Part shown: piece by piece, positions 28,867 through 61,539 of the stretch | Layout: every line of letters starts with the position of its first letter | How positions within the stretch are numbered: position 1 is the stretch's first letter | NCBI GenBank assembly: GCA_026075535.2 | Contig: AP026539.1 | Span: 12,400,001 to 12,464,000, forward strand | Direction of reading: 5' to 3' | Source of the DNA: Tricholoma matsutake | Lineage: Eukaryota; Basidiomycota; Agaricomycetes; Agaricales; Tricholomataceae | DNA length: 64,000 nucleotides | Notes under the pieces: generated by a model | What the model was told of the DNA's origin: nothing | Database searches by the model: none | What the model saw: only the letters and a program-made list of their open reading frames with translations | Translations under genes and position numbers: made by a program

Positions 28867-30207
28867 GAATGAAAGATTGAACTAGAAGAGCTCATTCCAA
28901 ATTACAAATCTAATGCTGAAGATGTAGAGGCAATTCAGGCTTTCCAAGGCCTTGAGATTGCAGCTGGGCGATGGTTGAACTCACTGGAAAGCACAGAGCT
29001 TCTCCCAGGAATGAAAATCTTCCCAATGTTCGTGGTTTGGCAGAACAAAAAACCCCATGTGGTGACAGATCACTCTTGCTCCAGAATAAATGATGGCATT
29101 CCACAATCAGAAGTTAAGGTCAAGTACGATGACATGCATTCATTCGGTCAAAATCTTCATGACACTTGTTCTGCTAATCCAGGAAGATGTTTGGTGACCT
29201 TCAAGTCAGACGTTGCCTCCGCTTTCCTCAACCTGCCTGCCCACCCCATTTTCCAACTTTGGCAAGTCGTAAGAATCAAAGGAAAACTATTCATCATTCA
29301 TCACCTTGTTTTTGGCAACCATGCTTCTCCTTGACGCTGGTGTGCTGTTTTGGGATTGCTGTGCTGGCTTGGAGTTTGCAAACTTGGGATTCCTGGCTTG
29401 CACATTTACATGGATGACTTCTTCAGCTGGGACTATGCTGACAACCTGATCTGGTACTGGGGAAAGTTGCATCCATGATGACAGGTTCAATTTTTACTTC
29501 TCTGGGAAATGATCTCCTGTCCTTTTGAAGATCGCAAGCAGGATCACAGTGAAGCATTGAAGATAATCAGCTTCTGGGTGGACATTAATGTGGGCAGTAT
29601 ATTGTTACCTCCATCTGCCATATCTGATGTTATTACAAAAATTGATCTTTTTCTGGCTACTCCAGGCTGTTCACCATCCCTTTGAACATGGCAATGCTTA
29701 GGTGGACATTTTATTGAACTGGATGTTGAATGTGCTTCCCTGGGGTCAGCCAGCCTTGTCAGAACTCTATTGCAAGATTAGTGGCAAATCCTGGTTGCAC
29801 CATGGAATCCCCATTAATGTGGCTGTCATTGTGGACTTGACATGGTTGAAGAATGTCATTCCTGCTGCCATTGGAATCTGCTTTACAGATATGGGTATGT
29901 GGCTGGATCACAATGCTGACATGGTTATGTGGACAGATGCAAGCCTTTGCAATGCCCTGGCATTTGTCTACTCCAACAATGGTTTTCTCTACCCCATCAG
30001 ACCTCCACCCATAGGAGTAAAAGTGGATATCTTCTTCCTGGAGTTGCTTGTGATCACATCCACTGTTCATCATGCTGGTTTGTTATCATGACCTCCTCGT
30101 CGAATCCTCATCTGGACAGACAGTCTGGATTCTGTTGCCATTTTGAACTCACTTCACATGGTCGAGTTGCTGCACAATGGCCCGCTGCTGGGTATTGCAG
30201 ACATCAT
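28867..30207 (+). pseudogene. Reverse transcriptase and RNase H (5' part) of the DIRS-like element
   Basis: After a frameshift near 28872 the frame reads EELIPNYKSNAEDVEAIQAF, then PMFVVWQNKKPHVVTDHSCS, CLVTFKSDVASAFLNLPAHP and, after frame changes, the RT catalytic box HIYMDDFFSWDY (Y-x-D-D). RNase H follows with MVMWTDASLCNALAFVYSNN, FFLELLVITSTVHHAG and WTDSLDSVAILNSLH, where the family has D, E and D catalytic residues. Several stops (after NHASP near 29333, and near 29480) show decay. The frame is cut after GIADII by element I and continues at 61540. Confidence 0.82.
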
Positions 30208-30329
30208 TAGTGTTGCCATGACTCAGCTAAAAGTTGACTTGAAAGCCAAAGTTGGTCACATGCTGGTTCAGGTCACACGCCACTTCCTGATGGAAACCGC
30301 CAGTTGATTTGGTCACAAATTTGACTCAG

Positions 30330-32785
30330 GTCAGGACTTGAAGTTGACTCACACCATACTCACCACTCCCCCAAATACAACTTTGTCACTTCCCCAGTCA
30401 ACTCCAATCAAGATCGATACTTCCATGAGACTTCCCTTTACTACCCATAACAAATATTGTATAGAATCATGTACTGCAATGGCAGTGGAGATGGAGAAAT
30501 ATCTTGTTGGCCCAATGCCCATCCAACAGTTTCTGGATGATTTCTTTCCAGTCAAGAAACTCCCCCATCTTTCAAGTTCTAATATTCCTTGATTCAAATG
30601 TGGCAAGTATAATACTACCATTCAAGCTAAAACAGAAATAAATACATACAACCCCTTCATGAGTTTCAGCTACCTAATAACTTGCTTGTTCTCTCACAAA
30701 TTTTTTCTTCAAGGTAAAATCAACTCAAGTATTTGCTCCTAAACTCAAAATTGTCAATTCATCTGATATCCCTGATTGTAATCCTCAACTCGATTTTCCA
30801 TTCAAGATCAAACCTGATATCTCCATCTATTCCATTGACTCGTTCCCTGGGGTGGTGACTGATTCTTCAAAAGTAGAGATGTTCCTTGAGTTCAAGTGGA
30901 AATCCAGTGATGATCCGTTCTGTGATGTGTATGACATAGAACATCTGCATGACAAGGACCACAAGACTGTTAAGTCATTCCTTTGCAACACAAAAGCACT
31001 CTAGGGCAGATTACTGCTTATGCTGCTGCTCAACTTGGCTCCCAATTTCATACCCATATCTATTCCATCCTTATCATAAAGGATACATCAAGGATACTTC
31101 AGTGGGACAGATCTGGCACACTTGTGACTGAAGCTATCAAATACAATGAATGTTGCCATCTCACTGAGTCTTTCCATTGCTACTCAGAAGTCTTGCCAGA
31201 GATGCATGGTAACGATCAGTCTGTAATGGATCCAACACTGGCTGAAGCAGTCATGGCTAGGCAAGCCTTGAACCTAGACAACACAGTCCCCCTTGTCTAG
31301 CTTACAATCCCTGACATGGATGGCTCTCCACTCTATTATATTGTGGCTAGCCCTTGGGTGACTCTCTATACCCCACCAGGGTGTGCTACCTGTGGATTCC
31401 CAGCATACGATGTCTCAGGATGGATGCCAGTGTTCATGAAGGATTCATGGAGGGTGGATATACCAGATATATGGGCGGAGGGGCTCATATATAATAAATT
31501 GAAGGCAGCCGGTGTTTCCCATGTTCCAGACTGTCTGTCATCAGGAGGTATCTTGATGAACCGGTACCACACTACAAAGACATTTAAGTATATCAATGTG
31601 CCATGGGCCTGCTATTTGACTGCACATTTTGTTCCTCATCGACACTATCATCTCACTTTGGATGTCATTGGGTGTTCCCTGAAAACATTTCGATCTTCTT
31701 ATGAAATGGTGTCTGTTGTGCATGATGCAATTATAGGTAAGCTTTTGTGATGCAGCTGAGAGGCAGAAGTTGACTATGCATGCATTTTAGCACTTATGGA
31801 TGCTTATAGAGCCAGGTTCTTGCATCACGACTTTAGTCCTGGCAACATCATCATCACCGTGGATGGCAAGGGACTGCTCATCGATTGGGATTTGTCAAAA
31901 CTTTTGGCTGGGAAGTCGGAAACTCCTAGGCATGCAATGCAAACCGTGCATCCCAAATTCCAACTTTTTATTGTGATTCCAACTAACACTGCTCTATAGG
32001 GTACCTGGCAATTTATGTCTGCTAGATTAGTTGCTCGACTGGATGGAGTGCACAGCTTCCAGGATGATCTCGAGTTGACAATCTATGTGTTGCTATACAT
32101 GATCTTGATGTATTCTGAGACATCTGATAGGGATTGGGTGCTGACATTTCTGTCTGGTGTCCTTGATCCTCAACCTCATGGGGAGACTGGTTGATTTAAC
32201 AAGGCAGACTCTCTCAAGGCATGGACATTTTTACAACAAGTCAATTTTACTGGCCAACATGCCCTTCATCATCTTATCAATCAGCTGGGTGACCTATTTG
32301 CAGTCCGATATGAGGACAAGCCCACTGGAGCCCAAGAGACTATAGCGAATGTCTTAAAGATGGTGATGGCAGCTGACCCTGATAATGCTGAGATTGCAAA
32401 GGCACATAAGGCAACCTTCTCTTACTCATATTGGACATGGATGAATGCACTGAATGACCACCAGCATACAATCAAACTCTTTGAAGTTGTGCTGTGAGAT
32501 TCTGCCTCATGGCCAGTGAATGATATTGCAGTAAAGTGGGAGTTCCAAACCAGGACACCGTTACCTCATCCTGTGACCAAGACTGGATGGGATATGCCAT
32601 TTTTTGTTGTTGGATTAGACAAGGATGATGATGTAGAGATGGATGAAATGTCGTGGGCAGATACTGGTGGTTCTGAGAGGTCTGATGACTCTGACCAGAT
32701 GATGGTGGCTGATGACAGTGAGGTTAGTAATAGCTCTCTTCTACCTGAGATGTGTAATTCTGATTTTATGTTCAGGAGTGAGTAA
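30330..32785 (+). pseudogene. FunK1-type fungal protein kinase
   Basis: FunK1 kinases are a basidiomycete-expanded family of protein-kinase-like proteins. The N-terminal part (MAVEMEKYLVGPMPIQQFLD at about 30480-30545) and the middle (SFPGVVTDSSKVEMFLEFKW, WGQITAYAAAQLGSQFHTHI, ILQWDRSGTLVTEAI) match the family order. The catalytic loop is FLHHDFSPGNIIIT (HRDxSxGN in the family, Arg replaced by His) and the metal-binding segment is GLLIDWDLSK. GTWQFMSARLVARLD and FQDDLE follow. The C-terminus is acidic (KDDDVEMDEMSWADTGGSER). In-frame stops (near 31300, 32195, 32495) and mixed frames suggest a decayed copy, although introns may explain some breaks. It begins only about 120 bases from the left end of element I. 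Confidence 0.82.
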
Positions 32786-33049
32786 GCTATTGCTCACCGA
32801 ACACCAACAGTCAGCAACCTTCATCAGATAATCGATTATACTTGAGCTTCGGTTATGAGTCTTATGACAATACCCATCTTTTCTTTGAGTGTTGGCCATT
32901 ATCTTTCCCTGACATAGTGATTATTCATTGACTGCCTGTCACAATTTATCTTCAGATTCTGTATTATTGTCGATTCCTACATACCTGTTTTGAATATACT
33001 TGCTCTGATTACTGGATTTGTTTATAGCCTTGGAGTGTTGTATAAGAAC

Positions 33050-34429
33050 TAGTCTTTGAAGGTCCAGTCAGGTTGTCTCACTTACAAAATCCCACCAACC
33101 GTGACCACAACCATGGCCAACCAGTTGGTGACTGGTTGTTGTCAGCTTGCAACTAGTTCCAACCAGTCGCAACCATACATATGTACAGTAATTTGTAAAT
33201 AATAATATGTATTAATAAAACTAATAATAAAATAACAAGAACCTTCCCCCTACTTGCATTGGGAGTGAGAGAGGGGGGGAGGTAGCTGTAGTCACGTAGA
33301 AAAGATCAAGAACCCCCCTGCTCACATTTGGAGCAAGAAAGGGGGGTGGGGGGCCACCGTCATCATTATTGGGGTTGGTGGTGGGTGTTGGTGATGTGGC
33401 AGTGGTGCTATGTCATCATCGTCATTGTTCTTGGGGTTGGCAATGTTGTGGCGGTGCCACATCATTGTCATCAGGTTGGTGTGGCGGCCTGTCATACCCC
33501 CATTGTCATTCCTCTCAATCAGCACCCCCATCTCCCCCTGCGAGCAGTGGCTCACAGGCTGGGTGGTGGTGCTGGAAACATATTAGAGACCCCTCCATCT
33601 TGCATTTGGAGCAAGGGAGGGGGGTGTCACCATAGAAAAAGAACATACCTCTCCATCTTGCATTTGGAGTAAGAGAGGGGGCATGTCACATCTAGGTGGG
33701 GTGGGTTAGCTGTGATGTGGCATGGAGGTGGGTGCGGCTGGGGGCTTACCTGGCAGGCATCCCCCTGCTGGGGTCTCCTGGTGTCCCTCCCCATCCTCCT
33801 GACTGATCAGCACTCCTCACATCCCATTTTGATGGGGAGGAGGAGGTAGAGTGGGTGGGTGTGGTTTGTACATGTCGGCGCACATCGTTACCAAAGAATT
33901 TCAACCTAAAAACATAGAAATAAAGTTAGTAAACATAAAGATATACAAAAGAAAACTTGCCGTGGGCCCAAATGACGATAATGTTGTTTGGGCCCATGTT
34001 GTTTGTGGCCATCATTGTTGTTGTCATGAGAAGTGAATGACAGCACATACAAACAAATGTGTTGCACTGCTGTTTACTTGCACCACACATATTCAAACAT
34101 ATACAAATGGCCCAAACATATATAAACCCTTGCCCATCCAACCTGTCATTCCTTGGGCATGCCCCAAATTTGTTACGGAGTAAGTAAATTGCATAGAAAA
34201 TAAAATAAAAATTGTACTATCTAAGATTGAGTAGCGAGGTAAGGCCACCCAGTTGCGACCGGTTGTGACCAGTTCCAATTGGTTGGACTTGCGAGCCTGA
34301 GCCTACCAACTGCAACCACAACTGTTGACACTGAGGCCCAACTGCAACCAGAAAGACTGGTTGCTTGTGGTTGGGTCCAGTTGAGTTCTGGTTTTTTTTT
34401 GGTTGCAGCAACTGGACCCTCAAAGAGTA
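33050..34429. mobile_element. Element F: non-autonomous TIR transposon, 1380 bases
   Basis: The perfect 8-base duplication ATAAGAAC flanks it (33042-33049 and 34430-34437). The ends are TAGTCTTTGAAGGTCCAGT and, reversed, TACTCTTTGAGGGTCCAGT, 17 of 19 matching. AACCAGT/ACTGGTT words form subterminal repeats (33100-33180 and 34245-34370). Four hairpins lie at about 33243-33283, 33311-33349, 33588-33622 and 33647-33682. A GAGCA-type palindrome (TGCGAGCAGTGGCTCACA, about 33538-33555) and a GGGCCCAAA palindrome (33964-33995) are shared with elements B and C. I see no tRNA-like module and no gene. Confidence 0.9.
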
Positions 34430-34481
34430 ATAAGAACGTGGTTCAATTCATGACTCTTCTTGCAAGAAATCGAGCCCTATA

Positions 34482-37477
34482 ATGGCGATGCATCGGAATC
34501 ATCCAGCTACACAAGTATGCCTGCAACCTAACACAGTTACTGAACAACCAACTGACACTACAAACAGTCAAACACACACTCTTGTACTACCCAGCAACCT
34601 AATGAGGCTAATGCTCCCAAGGATGGCAAATTATTTGATCTCAATGTCTCTGGTAGCGAGAGTGATGGGCCTGTCCAGCCAGCTCATCAGCCTCATAGAC
34701 GAGCTCAAGATGCAACCACTGGTACTGGTGCCACTGAAGTGGATCAACACATCAATGACCCGACCCAAGTCCAAGATTCACAGAAAGTTGCTGATACTCA
34801 TCACTTCTTCAAATGACAGGGTGACAGCAACATTTATAAAGTCTGCAAGTAGGCACTTTGCATCTTGGTTTTTCTGATTGACTGAAGACAATGTTGCTTA
34901 TAGGAAGATGTATGATGACAACCCTGTGAGTTGGCCAAGCAGCAGATGCTATGTATACTCAAAAGGAACATCGACTACATCACTTAGGCCTCACATCAAA
35001 AAATAACATTTGGAAGAGTATAAGAGGTTAGCAAAAGAGCATGGTTGGAAGATATTGCTACCAGGGCTCATTTCCCAAGCTTGGTCGGAACCAGCTGTGC
35101 CAGCTACAATCTGACAAATTTGACCAACATCCCTTTCATGAGTACCTGCTAAGGTTCATCATTGCGGATGATCAGGTATATGTCTTTCCCTCCTTTGCAT
35201 CCAAGTAACTGTCTCATTTGAATCATTCCATGTTTCACAGTCCTTGAATGTCATAGAATGTCATGAATTCAGGGCTTTGCTACTTCTCTTACAAAATGAC
35301 CTAAAGGAAATAATGATTCCACACCATACCAAGATGCGTGAGCTTATTGTCAAAGCATGGTGGCACTATTTCAAAGTCATGAAGAAGGATCTCAAGGTAC
35401 TCCAGGCTCTACCTTACTGTGTTTAATGCTCACTAACATAATATATCTAGCAAGCCATTGGTAGAGTCTCATTTACCACCAACATCTGGTTGAATAAAAA
35501 TTGTCGACCCCTTCTTGCAATCACAGCTCACTGGATAGCAAAAGTGGAAGGGTCGACTTCCCTGCAACTGAAAGCCTCACTCATAGCCTTTCATCATCTT
35601 TGTGGTGGTCATGATGGTGTGTCGCTTGGGAAAACTGTCCTCCGCCTTCTTGATAGGGCAGGTGTTACCATCAAGGTAGCATTTTTTATTGTAGGCCATG
35701 GATTTACTGATTTGACTATCTGCCAAGGTTGGCCATTTCACTGTAGACAATGCCAGCAATAACAAGACCATGATACAAGAGTTAGACTGGTTACTCCAGG
35801 CTCACAAGATTCCCTTTGACACTCAAGATCAAAAGATTATGTGTTACTCACATGTCATAGATCTTAGCTGTGGACGTATTATCAATGGGCTCCCTCAGGT
35901 CAATACACACTCTGATATCAGTGATGGGGATGCTGATGAATTACCTTTACTTACTGAGCCAACATATACTGATGCAATTGCACATGATACTATATCCCAT
36001 GCTCGCACTGTTGTCCAGGTTATTCGAGGATTGGGAATGTGTAGCAATGCATTTGGTGATGTCATGAATGAATGTGCCATGCCATTCTGGACATTACAAA
36101 TGGTAATTTTAAGGGCTGGTTCAAGGCAGGGCAACCTCTCAAGATCATACAACTCAAGAGACTACAACTACTGCGAGATGTGCACACTAGATGGGACTCT
36201 GAATTCTATATGCTGAATAGACTTCACGAATTATGCCTGGTAGCTTTTTTGCATCTTTTGATTCTGATTGCTGACAAACAATATTCAACATGACAGGCAG
36301 TCAATTACTTCCTCACTCTCCCGAATAACAATCAGCTAGCAAAGTATAAAATACATCCCCAGGAATGGCAAGTCATGCAAGATGTGGAGTTGATTCTAAG
36401 TGTGAGTATATCAGATCTCAGATATCCTAACCAAGCAACACCATCACCAGATTCTGCATAAAGTATAACACATTACAGCAGCAGAGAAGACCCCAATTTT
36501 GTCAGGTGCCATTCCCACCTTCAAAATGTTTATGTCACGATGGAAGAAAATTGCCAGGGAACACCCCCATCTTAAGGACCTGATTAAGCCTGGCCTTGAC
36601 TGGGCTTACATGTACTATGGTCAGATGGATCGTACAAAGGCATATATCATTGCAATGTGTAAGCAATTAACTTGATTAACAATTGTTACTAATGTAACAA
36701 TTATATATTAAGTGCTTAACCTGGCTATCCAGATGTCATAGATACAAACACACTGGGATAACCGATACATCGAGGATGCCAAAACAAAGATTCTGGAATT
36801 GGTGAGCAGGTGTTACGACATAACAACAGTAAATATCTAACTGTCCTACAAGATGGGGGAATATTGTGAAAATGTCACTACAGAAGCAGAAACTGAACAG
36901 CCAGCCTCTGAGGATCCATGGCCAGGATATATGTCACTTGCAGCACAATATGGTTTGGGGGATGAAATGGAGATTGGTAGCTCTACTAGTTCACATCATC
37001 AAGCAACCATCGAAGAAGAGTACTCATCATATATTACAGCTCCTCTCTCCCCAGCATCAATGGACATCCTCAAGTTTTGGGAGGTAAGTTTGTGGACATA
37101 GCGCTAACAGATATCTAACACATTGATTCTCAGGTGAACAGCAGCACATTTCTGACACTTTTTAGAATGGTGATGGACTACCTTCCAATTCAAGCCTCAG
37201 CTGTACCCTATGAATGAATTTTTTCTTCAAGTGCCAAAACTGACACAAAGAAACAAAACCACATCAGTCCCTTACTCATGGAAGCCCTGCAGATGCTCAA
37301 ATTCTACCTGAAGAAAGAACATCTCAACTTCACAGAATCATGGGTGATGCCAGAATCACAGATGACTGAGGACGACCCAGACAAAGATCATGATCTTCTA
37401 GACAATTTGCTTGGAGATGTTGGAGTCCAGGATACTTTAGATAGTATCATGCAGTCCATTGAAGTCGATGAAGCCTG
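34482..37477 (+). pseudogene. hAT transposase with BED zinc finger, probable transposase of element I
   Basis: The N-terminal part contains a BED finger split by an intron (NIYKVCK, then KGTSTTSLRPHIKK and LEEYKRLAKEHGW). The catalytic core continues with HPFHEYLLRFIIADDQ, TTNIWLNKNCRPLLAITAHW, FTVDNASNN, IMCYSHVIDLSCGRIINGL and LLRDVHTRWDSEFYMLNRL. The C-terminal dimerisation region reads FLTLFRMVMDYLPIQASAVP, then IFSSSAKTDTKKQNHISPLL and MLKFYLKKEHLNF, a full hAT signature. At least eight exons in different frames are needed. Stops occur after HHFFK (CHH FFK* near 34814) and before IFSSS (near 37217). No separate TIR pair around this gene was found, so I assign it to element I, which has the matching 8-base duplication. 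It could instead be a nested element. Confidence 0.82.
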
Positions 37478-37922
37478 ACTCAGACAGTCTGAAATGTGTA
37501 GTTCTCTAGCTGCTTACCTATGTCTTGTGTTACTTTCTCACTTGTGTACAGTAGTATTTCTTTGCTTTTTGCCTTTTTTCAGTAACTTCAGTTCAAAACT
37601 GCTCATGAATATATGATTTTCTCTTAAGCCTCAGCGAACTTTAACTTCAAGTTTGGTTAAAGTTACAGGTCACAGTATTACAGTCACTCTTTTTAAGTCA
37701 TCTGCCAATGCCATGCTCCAGTGACAAGCTCCTGGATGCAGCTGGAAGAAACTCCCAGCATGCTACTTGACACCAGTCTCCAGTGATGGCCTCTCACCAG
37801 CTAGCTGGGACATGAGGGGTGAACTGTAGGAAACTAAAGCGCTGAGATTGGTGCTCTGCAGTTCACAAGGCATTTAACCCTAATATTGGGGGGCTATGAT
37901 CAGCTCAGCCTTTGTCAGGACC
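37478..37922. other. 3' flank of the hAT gene
   Basis: This noncoding stretch contains likely 3' untranslated sequence and a CCAGTGAC/CTCCAGTGA word pair near 37720-37785. No gene is recognised. Confidence 0.4.
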
Positions 37923-38677
37923 TGTTACAATTTGTTATCTGGACCTGCAAGACTGGGCACTTCATTTTTCTTGTTTGACTCGACTCACTTCTGATGGGAG
38001 ACACTTTGACGCATGATGACTCCATGCACCCGAACCCACTTCCATGCATGCTGTGATATGACAGCCCTTTGACATGAGGTCCATGACATTGGACACTCAC
38101 AATCGACATGCTGCGCTGCAGCATGTCCTTGACATTGGATCCTTGACATTGGATCCGTAACATCAGACGCCTCATGCCAGGCATGAGGCTATTCTCTTAT
38201 TGATCCCTGACATGCTGTGCCGCAGCACTCCGTAACATCGGATGCCTCACACAAGGCATGAGGCCTGTCTTTTCTATTGTTCTTTCTATTTATACTTGAT
38301 AATGATCCTACATTCTGATTGGACAATAGATATCTTTGAACCGTATATAAGCTGTAGTAATACTGCCTGTATTCCCCAGCTTGACCTAATTCAAATAATG
38401 GTCTTAGACTCAACCAGAACACTCAACAGCTTAGGAAGCCCCTAGCTGTGATAATTCGAACTCAACAGTTGGAAAGCCTCCAACTGTGATACATGAACCA
38501 ACGGTCTAGGCAGAAAGCCTCTGAGTATGGACAGCCGTATTGACTTAGGAAGCACCAAGTCCTGAACAGAACCTGATACAGTAAGAAAGCCTCTTACTGC
38601 AAGAACCGATACAGTTGGAAAGCCTCCAACTGCAACATATGAAGACTAGGCTGAGTTAAGGACCTATAGTCTTAACA
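37923..38677 (+). repeat. Solo LTR of the gypsy-2 family
   Basis: A 755-base block from TGTTACAATTTG to GTCTTAACA is the reverse complement of the gypsy-2 LTR type (46011-46606, 52730-53445). It is flanked by the perfect 5-base duplication GGACC (37918-37922 and 38678-38682). No internal sequence follows, so it formed by LTR-LTR recombination. It contains TTGACATTGGATCC repeats and a CCTCATGCC-AGGCATGAGG palindrome near 38170-38190. Confidence 0.93.
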
Positions 38678-38792
38678 GGACCTGGTCAAGTTAGGGAGAG
38701 TGCTAGTAGTTCCAGGGTAGAAATCTGGAGGGCAGGAGGCGGGCCCCCCCACTGGCTGAAACACTTCGTTCCCGCACCACAAGTGCATAGGA

Positions 38793-39610
38793 ATGGGTCA
38801 GCGCATATACTTTCTAGTCTTCTTATTGGTACATATTTTCGCTAAACTTGTCCTTCACATATCCATAAATTACAACCCTATTCAAGATGCTGATGAGTAC
38901 AATGACGAGCTCATAGGAGAGCTTTGTATACTTTTCTCTTTGCTTCTAATGCATATATGGGCTTCCTTTCTGGTCCAAAACTGATGTGTATATGATATCC
39001 TATCCCAGCACCACCACACACAATCTATTCTCAACCAACTCAATACCCTCTCCATGACGCACAAGGCCCTCACATCAAATTACAACATGCACCAGCAAGA
39101 AATGGTTTCAGTCCAACAAGAACTTGATGTGGCCAAGCATGAAGTTGGATATATTCAAGGGGATCTTGCCCTAGTGAACAATAGCAAGGAGAAGATGCAG
39201 AAAGAGCTCGACAAAATGCTGGAGCAGCTGGGAAATGCTTGAATCGAATTGAAGGCGGAGAGAGAGGAGAGAAAATGTAAGATAGCTGGCATGAGGGAAA
39301 GATTAGACACAAATTTAGTCGAACATTTGTTCCCAATTCCTTTTGCTTTGTTGATGTGTAAAATATCCAGCTATGCACAACTACAAACATCTTTTTGATC
39401 TCTGAAGCTTTTGTACGATGCTTCCCAAGCCTTGCTGAGTGAAATGCGCCACAGTTGTGGATGGGCAGCTGATGGTCTATGGAGTATGTTAATGTTCTTG
39501 CCACTATCACAGAATAATGCTGATATAAACATCGAAGCTCTTGAACCTCTCTTGGATGCTGCCAACAACTACACCCACTCAGGAGGGTCCTTGGGGAGCT
39601 TCAGGACAGA
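38793..39610 (+). pseudogene. Hypothetical coiled-coil gene fragment
   Basis: A hydrophobic frame (MGQRIYFLVFLLVHIFAKLV) is followed by LNTLSMTHKALTSNYNMHQQ and a strong coiled-coil stretch (VQQELDVAKHEVGYIQGDLA, KEKMQKELDKMLEQLGNA, then a TGA stop, then IELKAEREERK). A further frame to 39610 reads ALLSEMRHSCGWAADGLWSM and ALEPLLDAANNYTHSGG. I do not recognise the family. It lies between the solo LTR and the oxalate decarboxylase start. Stops and frame changes suggest decay or unrecognised introns. Confidence 0.4.
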
Positions 39611-39688
39611 TTAGCTGGCTGTAATATCTTTTCTGTTTTCCGAGCCTAATATTGACCCTGTCGTATGCCACACCCGCGCCGGCATTTA

Positions 39689-40331: not shown

Positions 40332-40399
40332 TAAGATCTAAACTATCTGCTAGCCCACCTACCTAGGTGTAGGCAATACATCTCGAAACACACCACAGC

Positions 40400-41543: not shown

Positions 41544-41557
41544 AACAGTGGCCTGAT

Positions 41558-41953: not shown

Positions 41954-41999
41954 AAGAAGGGAACCTTTGAGTTCCGAGATGAAGAACGACAGGCTCAAA

Positions 42000-50682: not shown

Positions 50683-50706
50683 TAATCTTGCCTTGGTGAT
50701 GATTCT

Positions 50707-51513: not shown

Positions 51514-51530
51514 CGAGGCAGGCCACCTCT

Positions 51531-52682
51531 TTAAAAACCCTCATCCTCAATTGCAGCGAGAGCTCCTTTCTTTTCTTCTTCGTCAAGTGCTTTCATGATT
51601 GCTCAGATCTTCAAGTAGGCTTCCTTGCCTTTATTCTTTGGGAATGGCTGGTCCTCAGTCCTCTTTTCCCCTTTCTTGTGTTTGGATGCTCTGTGTCCAG
51701 TCTGATGGCACACAAAGCACTGTCCTTTTTTCATATGTTTGATCCCCTCCTGGTAGGAGAGCTGGTTGATCTCGAGTGGGGTCTCCTTTGCCTTGGAGTT
51801 CAGCAGCTTCCTTGTCAAAGCTTCCTGCAGTCTCCCTGTTATGGCCTTTGCTCTCCTCCACTGTCCGTCATACTTTGAGGTGGTGTTGATCATCCCCTCC
51901 AGCACTGTGGGGATCGTCTCCATGTTAAAGATCCTCTTGAGGAGCTTGGGGTTTAACCCATCCATGAAAAGTTCTATCAGGGTGATATCGTCGTTGATTC
52001 CTGCCTTTTCTCGCAGGATTTGGAACTGTGCAATGTAGTCCTCCAGGTCCTGTCCCTGCTTCAGTGTCTTCATCTTGGTTCTGGCTCTGCCAGCTTCGTC
52101 AATTGGCGTGAACACTATCTTGAGTGCCACTTCGAAGGCTGACCATGCTCCTAGGTCTTCCTTCTCTGCCCATGTCTGTGCCCAGGGTGCGGTGGTTCCT
52201 CCATTCATAAATGACAATGCAAAGATGATTTTCTTTTCATTGGTGTCGTAGATTCTGTGGTTCACTCTCAAATAGAGTTTTACTTCTTGTAAGAACTTTG
52301 CAGTTCTTGTTTGGTCCCCTGTGAAGTCAGAGGGGGTTCGGATTCTAATCTCCTTGGTCGATGCAGTGGGTTCAGTAGACATGCTGGTGTTGTCGTTGGA
52401 TAGGGAGAATGGATCTTGTTCTGGGGTTTCTTCTTTATTGGAAGATCTAAAGTCTTCTTCGTCGAGGTATCGGGGTTCTTCATCGAGGTATTGGGGTTCT
52501 TCATCGAGGTATTGGGGTTCTTCATTGAGGTATTGGGGTTCTTTGTCACTGGTCCTTCTTGAGAACCACTTCTGTGCTGGTTCCGAGTACTGTACTAACC
52601 GACCCTGGTATCTATACCACGGGGTTCTTCCTCATGATGATGCTCTAGTTGGAGGTCTGTCTGGGCTTTGTCTGAAAGACAT
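51531..52682 (-). pseudogene. Gypsy-2 Gag
   Basis: The frame begins MSFRQSPDRPPTRASS, a TGA stop, then WYRYQGRLVQYSEPAQKWFS. A heptapeptide (E-E-P-Q-Y-L-D) is repeated four times, encoded by 21-base units at about 52461-52545. The capsid reads IRIRTPSDFTGDQTRTAKFL, SFMNGGTTAPWAQTWAE and LIELFMDGLNPKLLKRIFNM. The zinc knuckle is C-F-V-C-H-Q-T-G-H-R-A-S-K-H, ending in His. A TGA interrupts after YLKI (51603) and Gag ends DEGF-stop at 51531, as in gypsy-1. Confidence 0.87.
52461..52545 (-). repeat. 21-base tandem repeat in gypsy-2 Gag
   Basis: Four copies of a 21-base unit (GAGGTATTGGGGTTCTTCATC on the plus strand would be 21 bases, so only its translation E-E-P-Q-Y-L-D is given) lie in tandem. 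Gypsy-1 has a single non-repeated equivalent (TDEEFERP). Confidence 0.88.
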
Positions 52683-52729
52683 TGTGTCTGCACCTAGGTA
52701 GGTGGACTACATAGATCAGCTTGACCTTT

Positions 52730-53445
52730 TGTTAAGACTATAGGTCTTTAACTCAGCCTTGGCTCCGTATATCACAGTTGGAGGCTTTCCAACTATATCA
52801 GTATCGCACTAGGAGGCTTTCCTAGTGTATCGGGCTTCTGGCCTTCACTTGGGTACTTTCTCAAGTCATTATGGCTATCTGTACTCAGAGGCTTTCTGAG
52901 TAGACCATCGGTTTGTGTATCACAGTTGGAGGCTTTCCAGCTGTCAAGTTTGAGTTATCACAGCTAGGGGCTTCCTAAGCTGTCGAGTGTTCTGGTTGAG
53001 TCTAAGACCATTGATTGAATTAGGTCAAGCTAAGGAATACAGGCAGTATTACTGTAGCTTATATATGGTTCAGAGAATGTCTATCGTCCAATTGGAATAT
53101 GAGATCCTTGTCAAGTAAATATAGAAGGAACAATAGAACAGTAAGCCTCATGCCTAACATGAGGAGTCTGATGTCATGGAGTGCTGCGGCACAGCATGTC
53201 AAAGAACAATAGCAAATAACCCTCATGCCAAGCATGAGGCATCCGATGTCAAGGAGTCCAATGTCATGGAGTCCGACATCATGGAGTCTGACATCACGGA
53301 GTCTGACATCACAGAATACTGTGGTGCAGCATGTCGATTGACAGGAGTCAGGTCAGGGGGTGTCTCCATCAGAAGTGAGTCGTGTCGTGTCAGAAAGGAA
53401 AAATGAAGTGCCCAGTCTTGCAGGTCCAGATAACAAATTGTAACA
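52730..53445 (-). repeat. 5' LTR of gypsy-2
   Basis: This 716-base block starts TGTTAAGACTATAGG and ends AACAAATTGTAACA on the plus strand. It has an internal array of GGAGTC(T/C)GACATCA-like 13- to 15-base units at about 53245-53320 and CCTCATGCC-AGCATGAGG palindromes. The adjoining internal sequence keeps CCACCTACCTAGGTG, also present after the gypsy-1 LTR at about 40356. Confidence 0.93.
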
Positions 53446-53523
53446 TTCACCCTCACCCCCCTCCATTGATAATACAAAAAGAACATGGCGACTGGACAAT
53501 GAGTCATTGACCAGTCACCAAGA

Positions 53524-53811
53524 ATGAACAGACTGCCAGGGCAACCCTCTTGGGAATGCCCCCATGGAATCATATTCTGGATAACAAGAGATGACTGGGT
53601 AAGAAGAGTATCCTCGACCTGCCCAAATTGCTGTCTCTATGTGCGGAGGAGCACAAAGATGGATTTAGGCTGGGTAAAAGCACAATTCGAGGAATGGTGC
53701 TTTGAGGGAGAGTTGTACGACGATGACTACTTCCCCAAGGAATTCTCCCTCAATCGTTATGGCCTAACCCCAGGCAGAAGACCACTGGTGGGAATCAACC
53801 CACCACTGTGA
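53524..53811 (+). CDS. Extra ORF downstream of pol in gypsy-1
   Basis: A 95-residue open frame begins MNRLPGQPSWECPHGIIFWI, followed by TRDDWVRRVSSTCPNCCLYV, RRSTKMDLGWVKAQFEEWCF and EGELYDDDYFPKEF. It ends at a TGA, after which similarity to the gypsy-2 copy continues (KDLQWNTHYDEESGFELARQ). It lies between pol and the 3' LTR on the same strand, in the env position of retroviruses, but has no signal peptide or membrane segment. The C-P-x-C-C pair and conserved W/Y/F residues suggest a small folded, perhaps zinc-binding, protein. Function is unknown. Confidence 0.72.
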   Translation: MNRLPGQPSWECPHGIIFWITRDDWVRRVSSTCPNCCLYVRRSTKMDLGWVKAQFEEWCFEGELYDDDYFPKEFSLNRYGLTPGRRPLVGINPPL

Positions 53812-54366
53812 AAAGACCTGCAGTGGAACACCCACTATGATGAAGAAAGCGGATTCGAGCTGGCAAGGCAGCTCTTATTTGGATGACACACAGAACTGGG
53901 AACATTGCTGTGTTCCAGCCGACACCCCCACACATCGACACCCCAGACTACTGAGCACAACTAGGTGTGAAGCGATTGTCCGCAAAGATGTTAAACTACC
54001 GATCGTCCACAAAGACATTAAACTACCGATAGTCTGCAAAAGATGTTAAACTAGCGACCGTCTGCAGAGACAATAAACTACCAATCATCCACAGAAGATG
54101 TAAAACTACGATGATTTCCCTTGACACCACACAAACCTACGGACCCTTCCCCTTCCAATGACACCACTGACTCTTTGACACCACTGCCTAGGGCAGCACG
54201 AACTAGAAGAACCTGATCATAGTCCAAGTTTGGACATGAATTATTCCTCCATTGCACCCCTTGACCCTGAACCACCCACATATCCAGACCACACCCAATC
54301 AGACCGTGGAGGAGAGATGAAGATTTAGGTCAAAGTGTGGAACTTTCGACCATAGCAGGGGGGTAA
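53812..54366 (+). other. Gypsy-1 3' untranslated region
   Basis: The first 75 bases still resemble coding sequence in gypsy-2. From 53975 to 54115 a short motif (TTAAACTACCGATCGTCC/GTCTGC with AAGATGTTAAACTA) is repeated four to five times at about 30-base spacing. A purine-rich stretch (GGAGGAGAGATGAAG near 54309) precedes the 3' LTR and may be the polypurine tract region. Confidence 0.55.
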
Positions 54367-55036
54367 TGTTACAATTTTCCTTGTAACTCATGGAACCCAA
54401 CCAACCTGACCAACCTGACGATCCCCTCCAGACAGGAGGCACTACCTGATTCATGCCTAGGGCATGTCCTTGACACCAGACACATGCACGATGCATGCTG
54501 ATTGCATGCATCTGATCCCCTTCCTGTGGAAGGCACCCTTGACACATGGTGACTCCATGCACCCGAACTCACTCCCACACATGCTGTGATACAACAGCTT
54601 CTTGACATGAGGTCCATGACATAGGACTCTCATGTCCTTAACATCAGATCCTTGACATCGGATCCATGACATTGGATGCCTCATGCTAAGCATGAGGCTT
54701 ATTGTTTCTATTCTTACCTAATATGCATCTACCTTTCGGATTGGATGATAAGGACCTCCCTTGTAGTATAAGTACTGCAACTCATAGTAGGGATGTCCTT
54801 AGTTTAGATCTAGGCAATTAACAGCCTTAACTTGCGAACTCGTAAACTTACTCAAAACCACTAAGGAAGCCCTTTAGTGCGTGAACCTGAATGACTCTAC
54901 ACAGAAGGCCTGCTAGAGTGCACTCTCCATCTTATGTCGGATGCTCCGAGTAAGACCAGTGCCGAACGACTTGTCAAGGAAGCACCTCATCGAACAACAT
55001 CGACTAGATCGAGTGGTTGAGGCTTTGCCCTTAACA
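54367..55036 (+). repeat. 3' LTR of gypsy-1
   Basis: It matches 39689-40331 along its whole length with scattered differences and one extra segment near 54487-54512 (GATGCATGCTGATTGCATGC). It ends GCCCTTAACA at 55036, and oxalate decarboxylase coding sequence follows. Confidence 0.93.
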
Positions 55037-56404
55037 GTTTATCTTCCCTGCAACCTCTCCTATCAATCCAGCCACCAGAGATGCAACTTGCCTGTCTTTA
55101 AATGCAGCTACTGGAGGAGCTCTGGCTGCTATCCTTGGTCCACAGAATGAAGCCTTGGAGCTGAAAAACCTGGATGTCATTGCCCTGCTGAAGACAGACA
55201 ATGGCCAGGTCCCTAATGCTAAGTGGCCATTCTCACTCAGTCATAATCAAGTAACTGCCGGAGGTTGGTCTCATCAGCAAAATAGTACATCAATACATGT
55301 AAATCATACATGGATTCATCCTTACACATGCATAGCTGAGTCATTACCTATTGCGACTGCCTTGGCAGGTGATCACTTTCCTTTCCACTTGCCCTGAGTC
55401 ACCAATTAACCTTTGGTTTCTAGGAGTCAATATGTGTCTCAAGGTTGGAGCAATCCAGTAGGCTATCTGGTTATGTTAAAGTGGTGATTTGCTGACCAGC
55501 TTTCAATAGTGAAATGCACTGGCACAATACTGCTGAGGTTCATGTCTTGACCTCAAATTCTGGTCCACATTAATAATGGTTCCTACATAGTGGGCTTACA
55601 TGCTAAAAGTAATATTGTGTTCACTTGTTCTCCTTCACTACTTATCCATCATTCCAGGGTGATGTTAGGATCAGCATGGTGAACCCTCAAAGTGAAGTAT
55701 TTGTTGGAGATGTGGTCTGTGTCTCCACACCTGTTATTCTGTGTTATACATTGATGACCTTTTGCTCAGGGCAAAGGAGACCTGTGGTATTTCCCTCCCA
55801 GCAATCCGCATTCTATCCAAGCAAAGAATACAATGAAAGATGGCACCGAGTTCCTCATCATGTTCAATTCTGGCACTCTTTCCAAGGATGCCACATTCCT
55901 TCTCACTGACTGGCTTGCACATGTTCCCAAAACGGTCCTAGCAAAAAATTTTGGGGTCCAGAATTTGAGCCTTTTTGACCATATACCTGAAACAGAGCTA
56001 TACATATTTCCTTGTAAGTTTTTTGTACCTCTTCATTTCATCATGTGGTCCATAATGCATATCAGTGTCCCCATCACCAGAGAACATTGAGACGGATATG
56101 GTAATTCCTAATAACACTCCAAATCCATATACATTTGCTCTGTCCAAAGTCAATGCAATGAAAATGCCAGGAGGGAGTGTAAAGGTGGTAGATTCAAGGA
56201 CTTTTCACATGGCTGAAAAAGTAAGTGCTGTTGAGGTTGAAGTGGAGGTTGGAGGCATAAGGTATGCAGTTGTTCCAACTGAAAAACAGTAGTCCGTCAG
56301 CACATTGCAGGGAACTACACATAAGTACCACCAATATGCTTCATGCATTCCATTTATTGAATCCATTACTAGCATCCGACAGAACCAGAGTGGAGCTTCT
56401 TCAT

Positions 56405-57440
56405 GTAAGTTATCCTGTACGCTGCGAATGATGGAGTTAAATTGTTTGCAAAAATAAGATGATGTGCCTAACTTACCAAAATGGATTACAATGGTCGATT
56501 GCATCATTAGGTAATATAGTATAAATGATGTTCTGTTCCACCATTGTTCCAGCACATACAATGTCTAGTCTTTGTAATATCCTGAACCCCAAGGATGGTA
56601 GATGACTGACAATCAAGTACATCTCTTAAATGTCAAAATTGCAAGCATATCGAGGCTTGTTTGTCTGATACTGATGGATGACCCCAACACACGCTTCCTG
56701 TAATCCTTTGCTGTGCCATCCTTGGAAGCCCTCAGAAGGGTCTTACAATTTGAGAAATATATGCTGCAATGGAAGAAAAGTATTCCTACTATAAGATGGC
56801 TGGCTCGACATGGAAGGTGATTGTTTTTGTGATACTCTAGATTCCTAATCTCAGCTTGCCCTGGTTTAGCAATCTGTTTGCCACCACTTATCTCTCAATC
56901 ATTTACTTGAATGACAGCCAAGACCAGTCACCAACCCAACTTTTGAATCATATTGGATGGTCAACCTGGTGGCACCTCCAGCCACAAAATGACATCACAA
57001 ATGCGGCTGGCCAAACAAGGATGCAGCTGATACATTATTGCACCCTCCAAAGAAGCATGGCAAGCCACAGAAATTTCCACTCCCATCTGAGCCCAACAAA
57101 CTTGAAGAGGAAGATGGAGGCAGGGATGAATTGGATGGAAGGGAGGGAGTGGAAGTCTCACCTTGTTGTGTACATGATACATCCTGGGCCAGCCATGACT
57201 TCGACCATGACAAGCTCAAATACAAAGAAGTACACAATATTATCCATGCCTCAGAAGAAGAGTATGAGAGTGAGGAGGAGATGATACATCTGCTTGATCG
57301 ATGGAATTCCCTAGTGGGGCTTAGTTGTTTTACATCCTCCAACTCAATGCAACCCTTTTCCCTTCCTCCATTTTCATTGGTTCAGATGACATCATCAATT
57401 ATATGCAGAGTGAAATTGCAAGCCTGCAATGTCAATCCAC
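56405..57440 (+). other. Extra sequence inside the second cupin of oxalate decarboxylase
   Basis: Between FFM (56404) and the next recognisable cupin residues (about 57480) lie some 1000 bases, too long for an intron in this genome. One frame at about 57038-57306 looks coding (HGKPQKFPLPSEPNKLEEED, CCVHDTSWASHDFDHDKLKY, IHASEEEYESEEEMIHLLDR), acidic and unrecognised. Another at 56856 (FSNLFATTYLSIIYLNDSQD) is less convincing. It is probably a further decayed insertion, whose ends I could not find. Confidence 0.4.
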
Positions 57441-57909
57441 AGAGGCTGTTTCACTGTCTCTTTGGCTGTCCAAACAGTTATGACGCTGTTCACATCTACC
57501 TCAAATGCTCAAACTTTCAATTTCATGGTAAGAACTTATTCCCACAGGTCATGTTTCCTTGCTGTATTTCTTATTTAGGCTGGTGATGTTGGTTACATTC
57601 CTCCGTCATTTGGTGTGTCCCCAATGCTTGGGCTCTTATGATGGTTTCTCACCACGGCTTGGTAGGACATTATGTGGAGAACACTGGAAATACAATGCTT
57701 AAATTCCTTGAGGTTTTCCCATCAGGCAAATGATTATGGAGGCCATATTCTGAATGCTTAAAGATCTCAATACATATCAGGCTTGTTCCAAGACATCTCA
57801 CTGGCACAATGGTTGGCATAAATGCCTCCATCTCTTGTCAAGGCACACCTCGGGTTCTCAGATGAGATGATAGCAAATATTAATAGACAAAAATTAGAAG
57901 TAGTGTAAT

Positions 57910-58657
57910 CCCATAGTAATAATCCTATACATATTAGCTTAGAAAACCTTGCTTTGGAGTAATTTATGTAGTATGTCATCTATGTGACTAGGTTCTTCAA
58001 AAGAAGATGAAGCAAACTCAGTGTGACAGAGAGCATGATGCATATATGAGTATGTAATCCAAAAAAGGTTTCTGCTTGGCGCCACCACCAATGAGGCTCA
58101 TTCCGAGTCATTCACCCTCAATAACAGGTTGTGAGAAAAAAAAGTGGTCAGAAAACACTGAGAACTTGAAGACATTCCAACTTCCAAGTCATACAGCCAC
58201 ACCATGTGGTCAAGAATGGCACAACACATGAAGAAGTCCTCGACAAAAGACAAACTTAAAAAGAATAAGGCTAAATTGACAGAGTCAGTTAGTACTCTTT
58301 GCATGGACAATTCTTAGTTTGAATTGGGCTACACAGACTCGAGTTCCTGTAGGACTCCTACCAGGTGCAGCCCAAAATAATGGTTCTGTAGGAATCAAGC
58401 CCAAAGTGAGCACTTTCTTTCTGTGATCTTGACAGACTTACCTCAGACTTCTGAGTTCAGAAAGCAAACATTCCCAAGCCAAACATCAACCTCCTCATCC
58501 TTGGCCTTCTTTCCCACCCTAATAAGACAAAAATCAGGTGCAAAAAAATTTTCAAACCACAGCAGAGTACAAAGCTGACATATGGTACAATAATTGTAGC
58601 TGGTAAATTGTGTGAGGAGCTTCCTTGGCCAACCTACAGCTATGACCAAAAAATATG
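57910..58657. other. Intergenic stretch between oxalate decarboxylase and oxygenase-like gene
   Basis: Mostly AT-rich sequence. A short basic frame near 58205-58310 (Lys-rich: TKDKLKK-like) could be a first exon of the following gene, but I cannot support it. Confidence 0.35.
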
Positions 58658-59870
58658 AATGCCTTGATTGATGAGGCATCTTGTAAGATGGAAATGGCAG
58701 TGGATAGTCCAGCAGATGCCTGCTCTGGCATGTGGTACAATGAGGGAGGCAATCTATTGGTAGCTGCCTTTGCCCATCAAATTGAGACCACTTCCCATCA
58801 GGTGAGTCCAAGCATTTAACTGGTAATACTGATTCTCATATGAAGAATGGGGTGGACAAACAGGCGCATGAGGAGTGGCCATATTATGAAGGTGCTGAGT
58901 CTGAGAAATGGACAATGGCAGATGTGGATGCAGCAGATCCCTCCAGGGTTCACTATGATGGTGTACCTGTAAGCCAGAAGTTTTCAACCAGTGTTTCTAC
59001 TTACCAACAATGCTTATAGCCAAAGTTGCTTTGACAGGCACATGAGGCTCTTCAATTTCTTCACTCCCAGGTCCATCCCATAGTACACCAGCAGGATATT
59101 CGGCACGATCCCACAGCAGATGTTGTAGATCTCCCAAGCACTTTTCAGGCTGCACAGTTAAACAATGAACTAGATCCAGATGAGCCTAATACCAGGAGGC
59201 CAGGTGTACAATATCATGAAAATGAAATGGGAAGAGAGTGGGTCGGCATCACACATCTAGTTCATGCCTGGGCAATGCAAGGCCAGAAGGTCAGCTGTAT
59301 TTCTTTGTGGAACCTATCAATATTTAAACTTGTTTCTTTGACTTTTTCTAACACTAGAATGGCCCTCTTGTCATCTCTAAGGACCGGGTTTGAGGTAGCT
59401 CAGATGCTATGGCTGTCAATTGGTACTTTCAAGTCACAAGGGAGATTGCAGATCTATTGTCAGCATATTTCAAAAAAGCATTTTCAGAGTACCATAAGAA
59501 ATATTCAGAAGCCTTTGCAGCAGGATGTTGGAGCCAGGTGGATCCAGGGCCATGGCTAGGACAAGCATTGGTTTTTAACCTACAGGTGCTTCCACATGTG
59601 GATGCTCTTGATGATGGCCCCACAGCTTGCTTCCCTGTGGGGTTCTTTAGCGGAGGAGATATGCATCTATCTGATTTGGGGCTTAAATTTCAGTAAGAAT
59701 TTTCAACTGCTTTCGATGACATCTTAGCCTTTCTCTCTTTTACAGATATTCTCCAGATGACACCCCTATCTCTTTGTCAGGCTGGCTTTACCATGCAGTA
59801 CAGCTATGGCAGCCACTTCCAGGAGAACCTTTGACCTCTGGATGCATTGGTAATGTGTTTTTTTCCCCCA
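58658..59870 (+). pseudogene. Candidate 2OG-Fe(II) oxygenase, TET/JBP-like
   Basis: Exons read NMNALIDEASCKMEMAVDSP (from 58658), TGNTDSHMKNGVDKQAHEEW, HEALQFLHSQVHPIVHQQDI, ELDPDEPNTRRPGVQYHENE, then AVNWYFQVTREIADLLSAYF and CWSQVDPGPWLGQALVFNLQ. The core is VLPHVDALDDGP, FPVGFFSGGDMHLSDLGLKF, QYSPDD and SGWLYHAV. H-x-D, G-x-F-S-G-G, a L-P/S-D-L-G strand, a P-x-D turn and a later His are the pattern of double-stranded beta-helix dioxygenases of the TET/JBP group, which in Agaricomycetes are expanded together with KDZ transposons. The 2OG-binding Arg was not located. Introns with GT-AG ends (about 59288-59358, 59694-59745) fit. A stop after ISKDRV near 59388 suggests decay. Confidence 0.5.
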
Positions 59871-60402
59871 CAACTCCTATTGTAGGCTGGAAGGAAAAGC
59901 TGCTGGGTGGAATAGAGATACTTTGACCAATAGATTTCCATCTTCTTCAGCTTATGCACACCATTAGAGGTCTAATTTGTATTCCTTCAAGTATGTCAGA
60001 TATAGGTTGCTGTTTGTTTGACAATTTGGAACAGTGTTGAGCATCCACCAAGGAGTCCAAACTAAGTGCAGCATATACTACTAGGCTCTTCTAACCTCTC
60101 ACAACTCAAAGTCCAGTAACTGGCAGTAGCTACACTGTAACACTGGCACATTCATTGCTTGGCATGTGATATAAGCATTGACAACAATCTGGGGAGGAAG
60201 GGGACAACAGCAACAAGGAAAGGGGCAGTGGCCAGGGATGACAAGAACAGGGACCCACATACCCAGGATGATGCACCAGAGGACAACACACCAAGCTGCA
60301 CCAGGACGACGGACTGACGCCAATGCACCATGATGCACCCAGGACAGCAGGGCTGTGTATGCCCTTCCTCCACAATTTGCATGGAGGAGGGGACTTTTTT
60401 TC
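59871..60402. other. Gap between oxygenase-like and CK1-like genes
   Basis: No gene is recognised. A hairpin CCTTCCTCCAC-loop-GTGGAGGAGGGG-like (about 60363-60392, TTCCTCC with GGAGGA) followed by T7 resembles the hairpins of elements B to F, and the GA-rich stretch before it resembles their interiors. It may be a remnant of such an element, whose insertion removed the kinase N-lobe. Confidence 0.4.
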
Positions 60403-61063
60403 AATTCTGGCTTTTTACATGGTAACACATTTAATGTCCACCATGCCCAGCTTCATTGTCTCCAATATATGCATGCTTGTAACTTCCTTTATCATGACCT
60501 CAAACCCAACAACATTGCTGTGGGTGTTGGGCAGAAGGCCAGCATAGTATATCTCATTGATTTTGGCCTTTCAAAGCAGTTCAGGGATCCAAACATGCAT
60601 ATGCACATTCCATATATTAACATGCATGGCCTCACTGGAACAGCTGTATTCACCTCTATTCATAGTCACATTGGTTGGGAGCTAGGCAGACAGGATGATC
60701 TTGAGTCACTTGCTTATATTCTGATCTACTTCCTCCTTGGTTCTTTGCTGTGGCAGAGCTTGGGCCATCAGGACATTGAAGAAAATTTTGTGCTGAAACT
60801 CAAACAACAAATCAATGTGCACAACTTGTCCCACAACCTTCCAGTGGAATTTTGCAAATTCCTAGAATACACGTGCTCACTTTCTTTTGATGATAAACCT
60901 GATTACAACTACTTGTATGACCTTTTTGATGGTCTCTTGTCACAAGAGGGATTCCCAAATGACTCATCATTTGATTGGAGTGCTTATGGTGGGCAATCAG
61001 GTGGCAAGGATAGACATGGTGCATATGATGCATACAACAAATGTGGCATACATCGAACTGGGT
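60403..61063 (+). pseudogene. Casein kinase 1-like protein, C-lobe only
   Basis: CK1 kinases phosphorylate Ser/Thr. The open frame begins near LQYMHACNFLYHDLKPNNIA (HRDxKPxN in the family, Arg lost) and continues with VYLIDFGLSKQFRD (DFG present), HIPYINMHGLTGTAVFTSIH and LGRQDDLESLAYILIYFLLG. This is the characteristic CK1 order of LTGTxxxxSIxxHxG and DDLESLxY. LPVEFCKFLEYTCSLSFDDK and DYNYLYDLF complete the C-lobe. The N-lobe with the ATP-binding Gly loop and Lys is not found upstream, so it is truncated. It is the last gene before the right end of element I. Confidence 0.82.
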
Positions 61064-61531
61064 AAGTGCTATGCACCAACTACATTTATGCTGGATACTA
61101 AAGGAATTTCCACCAGACTGCACTCTCAGGCTCGAAAGCAAGAGCAACTTAGCAAGATTGACCTATCTTGACTATGCTGGTGGTGCTGATGCAGCATAGC
61201 AGTGTTGATGTGGACCAATGGATTATCAAACCCCTTGTCTTGCATTTAGTTATATTCCTCAGTTATCCTTTATATCACTTCTGTAGCTATATAGAGTATA
61301 CCCCTTCAATCATGGTATATAGAGTATACCACAACTAGCTGGCTTTCAGCCAAAGTTGGCCGAAAGCCAGCTGAAGTCATGTCAATTAATCTTAGGCTGA
61401 AACCAGCTTGAAGTGCTGACTTGAGTCAAAGTTGCAGCTTCCGAATACAAACTTGCCGAAAGCTGGTCACATGTCAGAAAAGCCATGACTTTCAAAGTCA
61501 GCCTGGGACAAGCCGAGTCGCAGCAATACTA
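61064..61531. other. Right subterminal region of element I
   Basis: Noncoding. It holds a direct repeat (TATAGAGTATACC at about 61290 and 61317), a palindrome AGCTGGCTTTC-GAAAGCCAGCT (61337-61347 and 61362-61372) and repeated AAAGTTGGC, CCGAAAGC and GGTCACATG words also seen near the left end (30208-30300). It ends GCAATACTA before the duplication. Confidence 0.7.
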
Positions 61532-61539
61532 GACATCAT

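Follow-up and report, generated by a model that had tools for sequence, protein, structure and literature searches.

Introduction

A block of about 31 kb in the genome of the basidiomycete Tricholoma matsutake holds a hAT transposase gene together with several genes of host type, and raises the question of whether these genes belong to a single DNA transposon. The block lies within a stretch of 64,000 nucleotides, hereafter the window (assembly GCA_026075535.2, contig AP026539.1; C2:12400001-12464000). It was described in an initial annotation as a large hAT-like element carrying a fungal-type protein kinase (FunK1), an oxalate decarboxylase, a 2-oxoglutarate (2OG) oxygenase-like gene and a casein kinase 1 (CK1)-like gene. 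The genome searched here comprises 161,040,721 bases in 13 contigs (C1 to C13), with suffix letters denoting separate copies, and positions given without a contig are those of the window.

The locus is best explained as belonging to a T. matsutake family of hAT DNA transposons, large and with several genes each, that has grown stepwise and is now decaying, a reading to which we assign a probability of about 0.85. The core of the family would consist of a left end, FunK1, the hAT transposase, a spacer (S), CK1 and a right end, ca. 10 kb by summing the parts, with no whole core copy seen, and would have moved by cut-and-paste with 8-bp target duplications, as found at three insertions. Just after the transposase gene, one lineage would have received a separate repeat (X) that carries a 2OG/TET-like gene. 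Host pieces (oxalate decarboxylase, a piece termed Z and a coiled-coil-like fragment) would then have come into the middle of X, and the resulting 14-kb form would be that of two insertions, C2 and C5/C12.

Element borders and empty sites

One hAT insertion is located at 30208-61531, with inverted ends and the 8-bp target-site duplication GACATCAT on the left (30200-30207) and right (61532-61539) flanks. The chance of an 8-base match at two fixed points is about 1.7e-5. The block opens with TAGTGTTGCC at 30208 and, from the opposite side, reads TAGTATTGCT at 61531. The left terminal inverted repeat (TIR; 30208-30228, plus strand) is composed of TAGTGTTGCC and ca. 11 imperfect bases, matched by eye. 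The right TIR (61511-61531, minus strand) is altered in the window copy and elsewhere reads TAGTGTTGCC or TAGTGTTGCT. hAT elements often begin with the motif YARNG. The left TIR fits this motif, with TAGTG at every left end for which the first base is in hand, and right ends are also TAGTG, except for the C2 group, which has TAGTA. Subtraction of the nested stretches 33050-34429, 37925-38675 and 39693-55036 leaves 13,849 bp. Both the description of the block as one hAT insertion and the original length of about 13.8 kb proposed for it are thereby upheld.

Empty sites, suggested earlier as a check on the insertion, are present. Both flanks were joined over one GACATCAT to form a 365-base query, which was matched to the genome, with 40 matches scored of 66 candidates and 6 of the 40 being the C2 flanks themselves. 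The best match scored, on contig 8, spans the junction over 359 bases at 91%, and another on contig 11 does so over 339 bases at 90%, each with equal lengths on either side. A further 32 junction-spanning matches, at 71-81%, bring the total to at least 34 places other than the C2 flanks, and these uninterrupted copies of the repeat, labelled DIRS in the initial annotation, are empty sites for the C2 insertion.

Copies elsewhere in the genome

The genome was searched with 400 bp of the left end and 300 bp of the right end, with 15 candidates scored for each, so that the resulting counts are lower bounds. At least 14 loci have the first base of the left end and at least 15 right ends are present (self-hits left out). 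By their flanks, these represent 17 contexts, of which four have both ends in hand (C2, C5/C12, C10 and C6). Matching 8-bp duplications are found at three insertions, namely GACATCAT on C2, GTCAAAGA on C5 and TGACTGGT on C10.

The C5 copy (C5:2245119-2259900, 14,782 bp) has GTCAAAGA on either side and, together with the C12 copy (C12:8694387-8706041, 11,655 bp), is collinear with what remains of the window element once the nested blocks are removed. The C12 flanks are the same as those of C5, though diverged (369 bp of left flank and 1.5 kb of right flank shared at 94% identity), and C5 and C12 are for this reason considered one insertion. The presence of this collinear arrangement at a second site, where it is bordered by a different duplication, supports the earlier claim that the element moved as a unit with its extra genes. 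The two ends on C10 (C10:1046176 and C10:1060498) carry the same duplication and now face opposite ways; an inversion has therefore cut through the element. Both ends are likewise present in the C6 copy (C6:9839732-9848263).

The C2 insertion and its flanks occur three times within ca. 306 kb, in alternating orientation (C2:12324232-12355525, minus; 12430208-12461531, plus; 12604610-12629875, minus). The three copies have 1.5-kb flanks in common on both sides at 98-99% identity, because of which the three places are treated as one duplicated insertion. The triplet is a recent inverted segmental duplication.

The ten-base end TAGTGTTGCC had been put forward as a marker for further copies and proved unsuitable. 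It occurs 1,879 times in the genome (944 + 935) vs 94 times (51 + 43) for a reversed control. The 100 places listed include 21 plus/minus pairs whose starts are separated by 269-373 bases, in the manner of miniature inverted-repeat transposable elements (MITEs). By itself TAGTGTTGCC is not diagnostic of the element, and because MITEs have the same end, counting copies by it alone was dropped. One MITE (L001, C1:13312-13647) has a full-length fold-back structure and flanks, AGACCAAG and AGACCGAG, that differ by one base. It shares the 20 terminal bases of the element, at 95%, and matches the element nowhere else.

Core genes

FunK1 (30681-33048, plus strand; Pkinase_fungal E=1.8e-23) contains several introns in our own splice reading, and its HHD..P.N and DWD motifs are readable in the window. 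At 83% identity or more it occurs at 14 loci; at 13 of these the left end of the element is present, and at one, on C4, it lies next to the hAT gene. It adjoins 13 of the 14 left ends found. Four weaker places (65-77%), two each on C1 and C11, may be older relatives.

The hAT transposase gene (34430-37478, plus strand), which has introns, was described initially as full-length. It is full in extent but carries an in-frame stop (37215-37217) in its dimerisation exon. Pfam searches on single exons missed the transposase and spliced pieces were required, with Dimer_Tnp_hAT (PF05699) then recovered at E=2.7e-8 in the window (an X standing at the stop) and E=4.6e-14 in C5. Stops in the dimerisation exon are present in the window, C1a, C10 and C8, and that exon has none in C5 and C4. 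This domain accompanies YARNG-type TIRs, 8-bp duplications at three insertions and several occupied sites as well as empty ones, all features of hAT membership. The hAT gene region is present at 11 loci, with one distant relative at 66%, and all eight hAT gene loci outside C2 have FunK1 alongside; C12 retains just the 3' part of the gene. The distant hAT relative (C1:14220517, 66%) and a FunK1 relative (C1:14251582, 77%) lie 31 kb apart and are perhaps an older related element.

The CK1 gene (60190-61065, plus strand; Pkinase E=5.8e-11) is present in the block as first described, but its 5' part is lost in the window copy, where ca. 0.86 kb that is present in C5 is missing. The best match of the C5 CK1 is casein kinase 1 delta (E=3.7e-80). 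CK1 adjoins 13 of the 15 right ends found, being ca. 2 kb away in C10. Right ends lacking a normal CK1 are those of C3, with almost none of the gene, and C7, with a diverged piece. The HRD..P.N motifs are intact in the C5 FunK1 and the C13 CK1.

We take FunK1, hAT and CK1 to form the core because they stand regularly beside the ends or the hAT gene across copies. Comparison of gene content between copies, which had been advised at the outset, confirms the two kinases as regular passengers of the element but places the oxalate decarboxylase and the 2OG-like gene outside the core.

Repeat X and captured host sequences

Repeat X is divided in the window into a left part (37628-37924), a continuation (38676-38805) and a right part (58121-60189), all on the plus strand, the last with the 2OG/TET-like gene (predicted exons 58864-59925; T. 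matsutake homologue P0020). X begins at 37628 in the window, C5, C12 and C10, and C4 has parts of it. C1a and C8 are without X, the transposase gene being followed directly by S. Elsewhere, X starts at 37628 (two places on C7), at 37629 (C13) and 35-37 bases further in at five places. Beyond the far end of X, C13 has a second TATATGATTTTCTCTTAA, after which S begins, the two sides being read from different copies. X thus looks like a later insertion with an 18-bp duplication. The stretch from the end of X through S is missing in the window, C5 and C12, which is why X adjoins CK1 in these copies.

The 2OG/TET-like gene occurs at many places, with or without hAT parts. It sits in a separately inserted repeat, and the earlier view of it as cargo of the hAT element is not supported. 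P0020 gave no Pfam or PDB sequence match, the 2OG motif being read by eye only, and a protein model built from two sequences has a predicted local distance difference test score (pLDDT) of 33.6. A unit of ca. 460 bp inside X (59609-60067) recurs alone at five places with 89-91% identity and is perhaps a small element of its own.

Within X lies a patchwork of host pieces, all on the plus strand in the window. It opens with a host-like fragment containing a coiled-coil-like open reading frame (ORF) (38806-39667; 87% match to contig 13:7696801-7697595), followed by the first ca. 25 bp of a captured oxalate decarboxylase, which start within the signal-peptide coding sequence (39668-39692). The captured decarboxylase fragment continues at 55037-56456 (PDB oxalate decarboxylases, best E=3.3e-44). 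Piece Z (56457-57480), which matches contig 3:9211916-9213125 with sharp borders, is inserted in the decarboxylase sequence. Beyond it, the contig 9 locus continues at 57480-58045, with ca. 18 bp missing at the junction. The coiled-coil piece, the decarboxylase fragment, Z and a further stretch are found within X in the window, C5 and C12.

The contig 9 decarboxylase has a full signal peptide and, after 18 bp, runs on into the last stretch of the element, where the captured fragment has sharp borders; this gene would be the donor. The decarboxylase of the element begins inside the signal peptide and, in our own reading, has Z placed before the end of the second cupin, for which reasons it should not make an enzyme. 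What the initial annotation listed as a cargo gene is a broken captured fragment. DNA rather than a spliced transcript was apparently copied, because the contig 9 match crosses predicted introns. Besides contig 9, the fragment is present at four loci representing two insertions (two of the three C2 copies, C5 and C12). It was not found at C10, C1a, C4, C8 and C13, nor was a decarboxylase match found in the third C2 copy (C2:12604610-12629875). A gene outside the element, on contig 9, with its fragment inside the C2 and C5/C12 insertions, is the arrangement that defines transduplication.

Nested insertions in the window copy

The window copy owes its present 31 kb to two Gypsy-type elements, a solo long terminal repeat (LTR) and a small hAT-type insert. 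The last of these (33050-34429, 1.4 kb) has no transposase seen, ends TAGTCTTTGA...TCAAAGAGTA and an 8-bp duplication, ATAAGAAC, read by eye. It is not present in C5, C10, C1a, C8, C4, C1b, C1c and C1d, and perhaps represents another non-autonomous hAT-type family. The solo LTR (37925-38675) has a 5-bp duplication, GGACC, by eye. Element A (39693-55036; LTR pieces at 39688-40331 and 54366-55036) encloses element B (46011-53454), both assigned to the Gypsy type from reading their ORFs. The duplication of the A block is 5 bp with one base changed (GTTTA/ATTTA, by eye). The earlier view of later nesting inside a large hAT is borne out by these three blocks and their duplications.

Decay and selection

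Changes from the majority sequence are mostly C to T at CpG. In three regions, represented by 9, 6 and 9 copies (C1c, C1d and C6b left out), they amount to 2.2, 1.3 and 2.6 per CpG site, against 0.03-0.41 at the other C's. Such decay fits methylated transposons, as expected. The C to T signal at CpG is strong in element copies on C1, C2, C4-C6, C8-C10, C12 and C13. Trees of the three regions are star-like, with C5 grouping with C12, and C8 with C1b, C1c and C1d. Decay is under way in the copies examined, and the element of the window is now broken.

Within copies, codon positions have changed about evenly, and no consistent excess at third positions emerged in FunK1, hAT or CK1 when variation was pooled across copies. 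Clades and distant relatives, the latter (C1:14220517 and C11) at about 65%, were compared by codon position in nine tests. Changes in CK1 fixed between two clades number 8, 4 and 20 at positions 1, 2 and 3 (p=0.0015; 32 changes), and a noncoding control at the right end gave 17, 8 and 12 (p=0.19). FunK1 of C8 and C1b is without codon bias (26, 24 and 28; p=0.86). FunK1 exons compared with the C11 relative are uneven (30, 21 and 43; 8, 38 and 17). Values of p<0.05 were obtained for CK1 between clades, two hAT exons vs C1:14220517 and two FunK1 exons vs C11, and neither of two noncoding controls reached this level. The third-position bias of CK1 suggests past selection.

Comparison with known systems

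The initial annotation regarded a cargo-bearing hAT of this size as unusual, a view that the literature, in the accessible parts of the reports cited here, does not favour. ToxhAT, hAT-like and 14.3 kb in length, has eight genes, 74-bp TIRs and no identifiable target-site duplications (PMC6737239). Like the matsutake element, it combines a hAT-like transposase with other genes, a nested transposon, later insertions and decay resembling repeat-induced point mutation (PMC6737239). By description, ToxhAT differs in being found in ascomycetes and in carrying other genes (PMC6737239), whereas the matsutake element has short imperfect TIRs, 8-bp duplications at three insertions, a basidiomycete host and two kinases.

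Fungal hATs of about 9.5 and 5.6 kb have captured histone H3, likewise a host coding sequence, and that of P. fijiensis has 20-bp TIRs and 8-bp duplications (PMC6710886, PMC3538342). These elements hold one host gene, captured in P. fijiensis without introns (PMC6710886, PMC3538342); the matsutake decarboxylase fragment, in contrast, crosses predicted introns and is part of a patchwork within a second repeat. TET/JBP genes ride on fungal DNA transposons including hAT7, and IS3EU additionally has an alpha-kinase, combinations that recall the matsutake element (PMC12730594). However, hAT7 has 7-bp duplications and comes from rusts (PMC12730594), and the matsutake element owes its 2OG/TET-like gene to X and has FunK1 and CK1 as its kinases.

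Among mushrooms, the MarorhAT elements of Marasmius oreades are active hATs with non-autonomous kin bearing the same TIRs, but they measure 0.6-3.4 kb and no cargo is mentioned in the accessible part of the report (PMC9674265). Pack-TYPE elements of plants similarly hold host fragments between transposon ends, but are described as non-autonomous (PMC8903248), whereas the matsutake element has a transposase gene. The multi-gene hAT itself has precedent; for a hAT with both FunK1 and CK1, no report was found in searches of open-licence papers, most hits being judged from their listings.

Alternative explanations

Several observations weigh against a stepwise-grown, multi-gene hAT family. A single end is in hand for 13 of the 17 flank contexts, the C6 flanks do not match (ATGGTGGG and AGGGGACC) and those of C12 have diverged (ATCAAAGA and GTTAAAGA). 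Both kinases are seen together only at eight loci, or five insertions (C2 three times, C5, C12, C10, C6 and C4), of which C6 has no hAT gene, and the left end at C6:10339228 is without a FunK1 match. FunK1 of C6b, the oldest copy, is without codon bias (21, 21 and 24; p=0.87). The 14-kb form, X with its patchwork, is represented by two insertions. On C13, an X copy apart from the element has no clear duplication at its two borders, both of which were read, and X itself may be an inverted-repeat element, a Helitron or a long interspersed nuclear element, classes that were weighed by eye. Finally, the route of capture, likeliest template switching in the repair of a transposase-made gap, is one that we infer.

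The part played by the kinases is the point on which an alternative survives best. FunK1 and CK1 could be passive passengers, acquired in a single ancestral event and with no role in the element, a possibility that comes close to an even chance. It agrees with decay everywhere and with the lack of codon bias in FunK1 among copies, and the CK1 test is small and one of nine. On the other hand, the third-position bias between CK1 subfamilies, the intact HRD..P.N motifs of the C5 FunK1 and the C13 CK1 and the regular placing of FunK1 and CK1 at left and right ends are less easily accommodated. On the favoured reading, the kinases would probably be element genes that aid transposition or shield the element. 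More tentatively, and clearly short of even odds, a hAT lineage of mushrooms may have made FunK1 and CK1 part of its standard gene set and retained them under selection, their targets being the transposase, the DNA-damage response or host silencing.

Segmental duplication of host DNA, without transposition, is an improbable origin for the multi-gene block. Within the C2 group and the C5/C12 group the block has indeed been copied along with its flanks, but flanking bases and duplications differ between the groups and the C2 insertion has empty sites. An even slimmer likelihood attaches to a stack of insertions, in which the two ends would be those of a small MITE-type insertion and the rest of the 31 kb would come from unrelated elements that invaded it afterwards. 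The abundance of TAGTGTTGCC, the MITE-like pairs and the terminal match of the MITE examined are in keeping with this, but that MITE resembles the element nowhere else, the ends recur jointly with FunK1, hAT and CK1 at other sites, and such a stack is refuted in the main by C5, a collinear copy that lies between a duplication of its own. The large, multi-gene and fungal character of the block might recall a giant, cargo-bearing element of the Starship kind, with a tyrosine recombinase as its captain. Such an element has a negligible probability given the hAT dimerisation domain, 8-bp duplications and inverted ends, with FunK1 and CK1 rather than a captain as the outermost genes and no recombinase among the spliced pieces and the share of the ORFs that were scanned.

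Significance

On the favoured reading of a growing hAT family, a single genome holds the steps of hAT growth, with kinases without X, with X, and with X and the patchwork, alongside a donor-like gene and empty sites. Should the kinases indeed serve the element, the idea that DNA transposons can have kinases among their accessory genes could be tested in this family, and some of the spread of fungal-type kinases among mushrooms might be accounted for in this way.

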